DNA of 64,000 bases from Marinomonas sargassi (GTDB taxonomy: Bacteria > Pseudomonadota > Gammaproteobacteria > Pseudomonadales > Marinomonadaceae), in the NCBI RefSeq assembly GCF_025716875.1, contig NZ_JAOVZB010000006.1, positions 62,001-126,000 on the forward strand, read 5' to 3'. The stretch's first letter is position 1. Every line of letters begins with the position of its first letter. The translations under genes were made by a program, and so were the position numbers. A model generated the notes under the pieces. It was not told where the DNA came from. It saw nothing but the letters and a program-made list of their open reading frames with translations, and did not search any database. Of this stretch, positions 60,250 through 62,121 are shown in pieces.

Positions 60250-60807
60250 TTAAATTTCCATCAAGTCTTTTTCTTTCGCTGCAAGCTTTTCTTCTACTAG
60301 AGCAACATACTTGTCCGTGATTTTTTGCACTTGATCCTGACCTCGACGTTCCTCGTCTTCAGAAATTTCTTTTTCTTTAACCAAGTCTTTCAAGTTGCCA
60401 TTGGCGTCACGACGCACATTACGGATCGCTATACGGCCATTTTCCGCTTCGCCTTTTGCTTGCTTGAAGTAATTTTTACGAGTTTCTTCCGTCAGCGCAG
60501 GCATTGGAATACGGATTAAGCCACCCGTTGTTACTGGGTTCAAGCCCAAATCAGACTTCATGATTGCCTTCTCAATTTCAGGCACTAAATTACTTTCCCA
60601 TGGAGACACACCCAGTGTTCGCGCATCTTCCACTGTAATATTCGCCACTTGACTTAGCGGCGTATCGGAACCGTAGTAGTTCACTTTCACAGAGTCTAAG
60701 ATACTAGGGTGAGCACGCCCTGTACGGATTTTTTTGAAAGAGTTCTCTACAGATGATACTGCTTTATTCATGCGTTCTTCTGCATCTTTAAGAATTTCGT
60801 TAATCAT
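60250..60807 (-). CDS. frr: Ribosome recycling factor
   Basis: The 185-residue factor splits post-termination ribosomes with EF-G. It starts [15 protein letters not shown] and contains [29 protein letters not shown] and the ending [23 protein letters not shown]. Length equals E. coli. GAGGAAG precedes its ATG. The gene upstream (pyrH) is broken, and no intact promoter was identified with confidence. Confidence 0.97.
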
Positions 60808-60814
60808 AACTTCC

Positions 60815-61179
60815 TCACTTAATCAGTGTACCTTCATCACCACCTACCATGGTATTTACCAAGGCACCTGGTTTATTCATATTAAAAACACGTATAGGCA
60901 TACTGTGATCTCGAGCTAACAAATTGCGGTTAAATCCATAACACCCAATTGCTTCTCCAACACTTCGTCATAATTTAAAAGTGTCGCACTTCACAGCAGT
61001 AAAATCTTTCATAGGGCCAGCCGAATAAACCCTATCCACTTCTGTCGCTTTCAATACAACATCAGCATTCATCTCAATACCGCATAAACAAGCAGCAGAG
61101 TCTGTTGTAAAGAATGGATTACCTGTTCCTACAGAGAAGATTAACACATCTCCTTTTTACGATTTCGAGCAATCTTTCG
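60815..61179 (-). pseudogene. pyrH: Remnant of pyrH (UMP kinase)
   Basis: Pieces in different frames match the last 113-120 residues of PyrH in order: [20 protein letters not shown] (from 61153), [18 protein letters not shown], then after a shift near 60980 [18 protein letters not shown]. After a second shift near 60918, [20 protein letters not shown] and [11 protein letters not shown] follow to a TGA at 60815. A third shift near 61155 probably joins RKIARNRKK to GDV. In-frame stops occur at 60968 and near 60917. The first half of the gene, about 120 residues with the P-loop-like GEAL region, is absent. The position between tsf and frr is the normal pyrH site. KVDGV has become EVDRV and ADP has become AGP, consistent with relaxed selection. 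Confidence 0.9.
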
Positions 61180-61206: not shown

Positions 61207-61233
61207 CAAAAAGGGGCAGTCAAGCTGCCCCTT
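61207..61233 (-). terminator. Rho-independent terminator after tsf
   Basis: GGGGCAG (61213-61219) pairs with CTGCCCC (61225-61231) around a 5-base loop. Five T follow on the minus strand. It lies 28 bases past the tsf stop, between tsf and the pyrH remnant. Confidence 0.9.
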
Positions 61234-61260: not shown

Positions 61261-62121
61261 TTAACCTTTAAGTTGTGCCGCCACTTCAGCAGCAAAGTCA
61301 ACTTCTTCGACTTCGATACCTTCACCTACTTCAAGGCGAACAAAAGAAGTAACCGTTGCACCAGCGTCTTTAACTAACTGACCAACTTTAACTTCTGGGT
61401 TCTTAACAAAAGGCTGTTCTACTAGGCTGTTTTCAGCCAAGAATTTCTTCATGCGACCAACAATCATTTTATCAACGATTTCTGCTGGCTTACCAGCCAT
61501 ATCAGGCTGAGCACGAACAATCTCTTCTTCTTTAGCAAGTACATCAGCAGGCATGTCATCACCACGAACAACTTGTGGCGCAACGGCTGCTACATGCATA
61601 GACACATCTTTAGCTAGTTCTTCAGAACCACCTTCCAACTGAGTCAATACTGCAATCTGACCGTTTCCGTGAAGGTAACCACTCACAAGAGCGCCTTCTA
61701 CGATAACAGCACGACGAGGAGTGATGTTTTCGCCAATTTTCTGAACTAAGGCTTCACGAGCATCACCAAGTTCACCTGCCAACAAAGTAGCCATGTCAGT
61801 TTCTTTTGTTTCAAAAGCAACGTCTGCAACTTTATTTGCGAAAGCAACAAAACCTTCATCACGAGATGCGAAATCAGTTTCTGAGTTTACTTCAACCAAC
61901 ATACCATAAGAAGCATCATCTGCTACTCGCATGATGATGGTACCTTCAGCAGCAGTACGACCAGCTTTCTTAGCTGCTTTCATACCACTTGTTTTACGAA
62001 GCTCTTCAATTGCTACTTCAACGTCAGCGTTAGCAGCGACAAGTGCTTTCTTACACTCCATCATGCCTAAGCCAGTACGCTCACGTAGCTCTTTTACCAA
62101 TGCTGCAGATACTGCGGCCAT
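61261..62121 (-). CDS. tsf: Translation elongation factor Ts
   Basis: The 286-residue exchange factor recycles EF-Tu. It has the N-terminal UBA-like domain ([20 protein letters not shown]), the TDFAS motif (about 81-85) that inserts into EF-Tu, the coiled-coil insert and a C-terminal module. Length is typical. It follows rpsB after 82 bases, the usual rpsB-tsf operon. Confidence 0.97.

Follow-up and report, generated by a model that had tools for sequence, protein, structure and literature searches.

PyrH is treated as the essential uridine monophosphate (UMP) kinase of bacteria, is taken to be universal and is used as a marker gene. According to excerpts of PMC12404492, archaea and bacteria have separate cytidine monophosphate and UMP kinases, and the prokaryotic UMP kinases are amino-acid-kinase-like. 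Excerpts of PMC12847342 present PyrH as a target in antibacterial studies. The eukaryotic UMP/CMP kinase (TIGR01359; PDB 1uke and 1tev; yeast 1uky) is built on the adenylate-kinase fold, with a P-loop and conserved arginines. In E. coli, as described in excerpts of PMC3386227, pyrH was made dispensable by high-copy suppression with cmk, which encodes an unrelated nucleoside monophosphate (NMP) kinase. Here we describe a 64,000-nucleotide stretch of the Marinomonas sargassi genome (the window; G000:C9:62001-126000), in which pyrH is a broken remnant between tsf and frr. The step it would catalyze has very probably been taken over by a 299-residue kinase of the adenylate-kinase fold encoded elsewhere in the genome (3.14 Mb in 12 contigs, completeness 99.99%). 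Coordinates are collected in Table 1.

Within the tsf-frr interval, the TIGR02075 profile recognizes no more of pyrH than its final ~117 codons, and the match contains one TGA and one TAA stop. Alignment to the intact loci of two relatives showed that the leader, the start and the N-terminal half are gone and that two single-base changes, an insertion and a deletion, divide the remainder into three pieces. The outer two pieces share one frame (their open reading frames start at 61147 and 60922, a difference of 225 nt), so that two frames are used and not three, as the first-pass annotation of the window had it. Its other readings of the locus were borne out, namely a truncated and frameshifted pyrH of which the last 113-120 codons are left, at least two indels, and the residue changes VDG to VDR and ADP to AGP, which are read directly in the sequence. 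The same annotation had proposed a check of related strains. In Marinomonas colpomeniae SM2066 (G024), the same pyrH locus is broken and more eroded, has extra lesions of its own, and is accompanied by no other copy in the genome. The gap between tsf and frr measures 456 nt in the window and 404 nt in M. colpomeniae compared with 849-916 nt in 30 compared loci, all of which have an intact pyrH. In both species, the 5' loss begins right at a T run after tsf. With PyrH homology at the tsf-frr locus and a frame broken here and in the relative, the element was classified as a pyrH pseudogene. PyrH scored over the cut-off in 54 of 56 genomes, that of the window included, and the two exceptions were the window's genome and M. 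colpomeniae. An eight-protein tree (32 rows, 2842 columns), built with a quick method and with support from the Shimodaira-Hasegawa-like approximate likelihood ratio test (SH-aLRT) only, joined the two species as sisters (SH-aLRT 99), next to genome G002 with an intact pyrH. A single loss of pyrH in the common ancestor of both species is most likely.

Profile searches of the whole assembly found no second PyrH. The amino-acid kinase (AA-kinase) family is represented by five intact proteins, ProB, ArgB, ArgA and two aspartokinases, one of them of the PRK09181 type; each of them scored over an NCBIfam cut-off, and none is a UMP kinase. The first-pass annotation had expected either an intact copy elsewhere, which is excluded within the assembly, or another kinase, for which a candidate was found. 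A PF00406 search of 14 genomes returned a full-length adk-type match in each of them and a second member over the cut-off only in M. sargassi and M. colpomeniae (on NZ_JACYFC010000003.1 in the latter). In both species, this second gene occupies the same site, between a small gene and what appear by eye to be cobalamin genes. Among 48 genomes of the genus, the kinase is present in these two and in none of the other 46. PyrH was tested in 39 of the 48, and 37 were positive; the exceptions were again the two kinase carriers.

By Pfam gathering score and by fold, the protein belongs to the adenylate-kinase-fold NMP kinases (PF00406 superfamily). It scores below the curated cut-offs of both TIGR01351 (adenylate kinase; 77.9 versus 168 bits) and TIGR01359 (UMP-CMP kinase; 67 versus 207.6 bits). 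No AA-kinase match with E <= 1 was found in Pfam and NCBIfam among the matches listed (best 25 of 26 NCBIfam rows). An adenylate-kinase fold is predicted, the catalytic-type residues of an NMP kinase are conserved, and the gene is under purifying selection. Compared with the adenylate kinase of Mycobacterium tuberculosis, the new kinase has ~55 more residues in the NMP-binding part, between SMGEILR and GLLVPNRW, with a possible role in regulation or in oligomer contacts. This extra part corresponds to residues about 66-125 of the kinase (L056:9293-10192) and has no strong Pfam or NCBIfam match. At the positions of the M. tuberculosis threonine (in STGE) and glutamine (in GYPRSVEQA), methionine and alanine are found in all 13 aligned members of the kinase family. 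Yeast uridylate kinase has SAGD where the new kinase has SMGE, and the latter also has GYPRTxxAA. Both Marinomonas species keep an ordinary adk besides the new kinase.

The distribution of the kinase relative to PyrH was then compared across genomes. A one-genome-per-species scan, the sole scan to reach beyond the order of Marinomonas and the phylum of Fluviispira, was pattern-based and therefore finds close relatives only. It returned 13 loci, from M. colpomeniae, four Reinekea, Silvanigrella, Fluviispira, Spirobacillus, other metagenome-assembled genomes (MAGs) and one Sericytochromatia MAG, and PyrH was over the cut-off in none of the 13 genomes. A divergent PyrH in 13 kinase-bearing relatives was considered and rejected, as their best matches below the cut-off look like other AA-kinases. 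Six of these matches are short aspartokinase-like proteins, five of which scored as aspartokinase, and the four from Reinekea are 73-77% identical to LysC of the window's genome; for G073, G075 and G080 the judgement used position and length alone, and the individual assessment covered the best match of each genome. Across the 341 genomes of the order, the kinase family was found in six (E <= 1e-40) and PyrH in 326. The 15 genomes without PyrH are the six kinase carriers and nine others (G082, G134, G171, G176, G205, G279, G317, G362 and G385). Seven of these others are <90% complete, whereas G134 and G362, which belong to one genus, are good genomes. None of the 297 good PyrH-bearing genomes of the order has the kinase. 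Within Fluviispira's phylum (58 genomes), the kinase was found in 16 and PyrH over the cut-off in 38; G389 has PyrH as two pieces on two contigs. All but one of the 16 carriers are without PyrH, G413 having both. Neither protein was found in G417, G427, G431 and G432; G417 and G432, without even an adenylate-kinase-family match, are probably incomplete genomes. Taken together, there are 25 distinct kinase-bearing genomes (distinct assemblies, with duplicates merged by coordinates: G217 = G072, G351 = G071, G024 = G073), and PyrH is missing in 24 of them. Fisher tests of the co-occurrence, which treat genomes as independent, gave 2.4e-9, 2.6e-11 and 1.9e-9. The carriers represent four or more separated lineages (Marinomonas, Reinekea, the Silvanigrella group with its phylum, and Sericytochromatia).

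The simplest account of these results is a non-orthologous displacement of pyrH. We consider it highly probable that the new kinase is a UMP kinase, a substrate assigned from co-occurrence, that displaced PyrH in this branch of Marinomonas, where pyrH would be a decaying pseudogene shared by the two species. Their common ancestor would have gained the kinase gene horizontally, and, the step then being covered by two enzymes, pyrH would have become redundant and free to decay. A deletion would have taken the pyrH leader and first half, leaving the remainder to drift. We infer that acquisition preceded the loss; of the two routes to decay that the first-pass annotation had named, horizontal acquisition is supported and duplication is not. 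The enzyme would convert UMP and ATP to uridine diphosphate (UDP), with ATP bound at the P-loop and the phosphate held and transferred by conserved arginines, and the pyrimidine would be taken by an NMP site unlike that of adenylate kinases, with an enlarged NMP domain. The kinase family would likewise substitute for PyrH in Reinekea, in Silvanigrella-type Bdellovibrionota and in the Sericytochromatia genome. With somewhat less assurance, but still as the likely reading, we propose that these kinases, of the adenylate-kinase fold with a larger NMP domain and unrelated to PyrH, are a family of bacterial UMP kinases not described before, which moves horizontally across phyla (Pseudomonadota, Bdellovibrionota and Sericytochromatia) and repeatedly displaces PyrH. 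The window would then have caught a displaced pyrH in the middle of its decay.

The reaction proposed (UMP + ATP -> UDP + ADP) is that of bacterial PyrH (AA-kinase family, TIGR02075), with which the new kinase occurs near-exclusively and to which, by its lack of an AA-kinase match, it is unrelated. It would do the same job as the eukaryotic UMP/CMP kinase on the common fold. As in the E. coli suppression, an unrelated NMP kinase would make pyrH dispensable; there, according to the same excerpts (PMC3386227), the cause was laboratory overexpression of Cmk, whereas in Marinomonas it would be a natural, separate and apparently horizontally moving gene. The open-access literature, as far as it was surveyed, contained no account of a UMP kinase of this kind, nor of pyrH having been lost in Marinomonas, Reinekea or Silvanigrella. 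If the proposal is true, it shows how an essential core gene gets swapped and that PyrH is not irreplaceable, and it gives a function to a family whose members at present score only as adenylate kinases below the cut-off. A UMP kinase of the adenylate-kinase fold would also break the view, found in excerpts of PMC12404492, that prokaryotic UMP kinases are relatives of amino-acid kinases.

Several observations weigh against the displacement of PyrH by this kinase. In sequence and fold, its nearest neighbors are adenylate kinases (M. tuberculosis, 1p4s/2cdn; yeast, 3aky) and not UMP/CMP kinases. Completeness figures are available for six of the 25 kinase-bearing genomes and lacking for the other 19; G430, G079 and G412 have only 1.2-1.9 Mb, so that single PyrH absences may be gaps. 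In G413 (7.4 Mb; L104 and L131), PyrH and the most divergent kinase member stand together, which may represent a stage preceding displacement, a paralogue with another function or a mixed MAG. Neither protein occurs in G427 and G431, yet adk is present. G134 and G362 (genus g61 of the same order; loci L107, L108, L112, L114, L116, L120 and L121) are 100% and 98% complete, one of them a single contig, and PyrH is absent from both; other genera of their family have it. Each has four AA-kinase matches, a single adenylate-kinase-family protein and no new kinase, and they indicate another PyrH loss with a substitute other than the new kinase. Because G134, G362, G427 and G431 lack both proteins, PyrH may be lost by other routes. 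The tsf+frr DNA tree joined the two Marinomonas species in 4% of 200 bootstrap trees and leaves them apart at low resolution. Two independent losses in the genus were considered on account of this tree and rejected, the eight-protein tree joining the pair. Finally, the census covered PyrH, the adenylate-kinase family and the new kinase, with cmk outside it.

This last point bears on the main rival explanation, in which Cmk, more highly expressed or altered in its specificity, took over UMP phosphorylation and the new kinase is a bystander with another role. Excerpts of PMC3386227 report that cmk on a plasmid permits deletion of pyrH in E. coli, and G134 and G362 manage with neither PyrH nor the new kinase. 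However, a bystander is not expected to follow PyrH loss across distant lineages, as seen in 24 of 25 carriers and in none of the good PyrH-bearing genomes of the order, and we regard this explanation as unlikely. Less likely still, and by a clear step, is that the kinase accompanies PyrH loss without PyrH chemistry, for example by making PyrH harmful or as part of a pathway that supplies UDP otherwise. Such an incompatibility would likewise give near-strict mutual exclusion, but a UDP source would still be needed, the protein has an NMP-kinase fold with conserved catalytic-type residues, and the coexistence of both proteins in G413 is contrary to it. An assembly or sequencing error at the locus, which the first-pass annotation had named as the way its reading could fail, or an intact pyrH on a plasmid or in a gap between the 12 contigs, is very improbable given the completeness of the assembly, a separately sequenced second species broken at the same locus with further lesions and no other copy, and the 22 additional kinase-bearing genomes that are also without PyrH.

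The kinase of the displacement proposal probably reached Marinomonas by horizontal transfer, with a Reinekea-like donor inferred. Identities between the Marinomonas proteins and those of four Reinekea are 77.6-86.5%, almost as high as the 80.6-87.2% among the Reinekea themselves. For comparison, LysC is 72.7-76.5% identical between Marinomonas and Reinekea, and identities to G039 of the Reinekea family are 65% for Tsf and 64% for Frr. In the tree of the kinase gene, the two Marinomonas sequences branch among those of Reinekea, the inner nodes being weakly supported. Acquisition from such a donor is likely because 46 of the 48 genomes of the genus are without the kinase. The G+C content of the gene (40%) fits the host, unlike that of most Reinekea loci, and the acquisition was therefore not very recent. 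An origin from a phage or plasmid was rejected, as no match was found in phages, viral contigs or PHROGs; among plasmids, only those of C. difficile gave a match, a remote adk with 27% identity. A defence gene was likewise dismissed, because the two PADLOC matches were weak (E 0.002 and 0.005) and were taken as chance P-loop matches.

Table 1. Position of the pyrH remnant, its flanking features and the candidate substitute kinase (window coordinates unless stated)
Feature	Position	Strand	Description
pyrH remnant	60818..61165	minus	TIGR02075 (pyrH_bact) positions 117-233 of 233, E 3.4e-29; alignment to two intact relatives
Remnant, piece 1	60968..61147	minus	59-codon open frame; PF00696 piece 60995-61117
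Remnant, middle piece	60916..60978	minus	Second frame, flanked by the 1-nt indels; TIGR02075 positions 180-200
Remnant, last piece	60815..60922	minus	First frame again; ends at old stop just before frr start
tsf, intact, upstream	61261..62121	minus	286 aa; 83.5-93.4% identity to same-genus orthologues
frr, intact, downstream	60250..60807	minus	185 aa; 81.6-92.4% identity to same-genus orthologues
GC-rich hairpin and T run, 3' of tsf	61208..61231	minus	Seen in alignment; kept in intact and broken loci
Adenylate-kinase-fold NMP kinase	C7:365292-366188 (own genome, outside window)	plus	299 aa

The hairpin downstream of tsf is absent from the terminators listed by a consensus scan. A promoter for frr created by the deletion was considered and dropped, since one site was found and 1.3 were expected by chance. 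The surroundings of the kinase gene vary between lineages: in the Silvanigrella group (L065-L070) it lies directly downstream of a gene resembling dapA by eye, and its neighbors differ in Reinekea and Marinomonas. Kinase-bearing genomes of Fluviispira's phylum (L073, L074, L077, L078, L079 and L081) have a short aspartokinase of 253-301 aa that lacks the C-terminal portion found in ordinary LysC.
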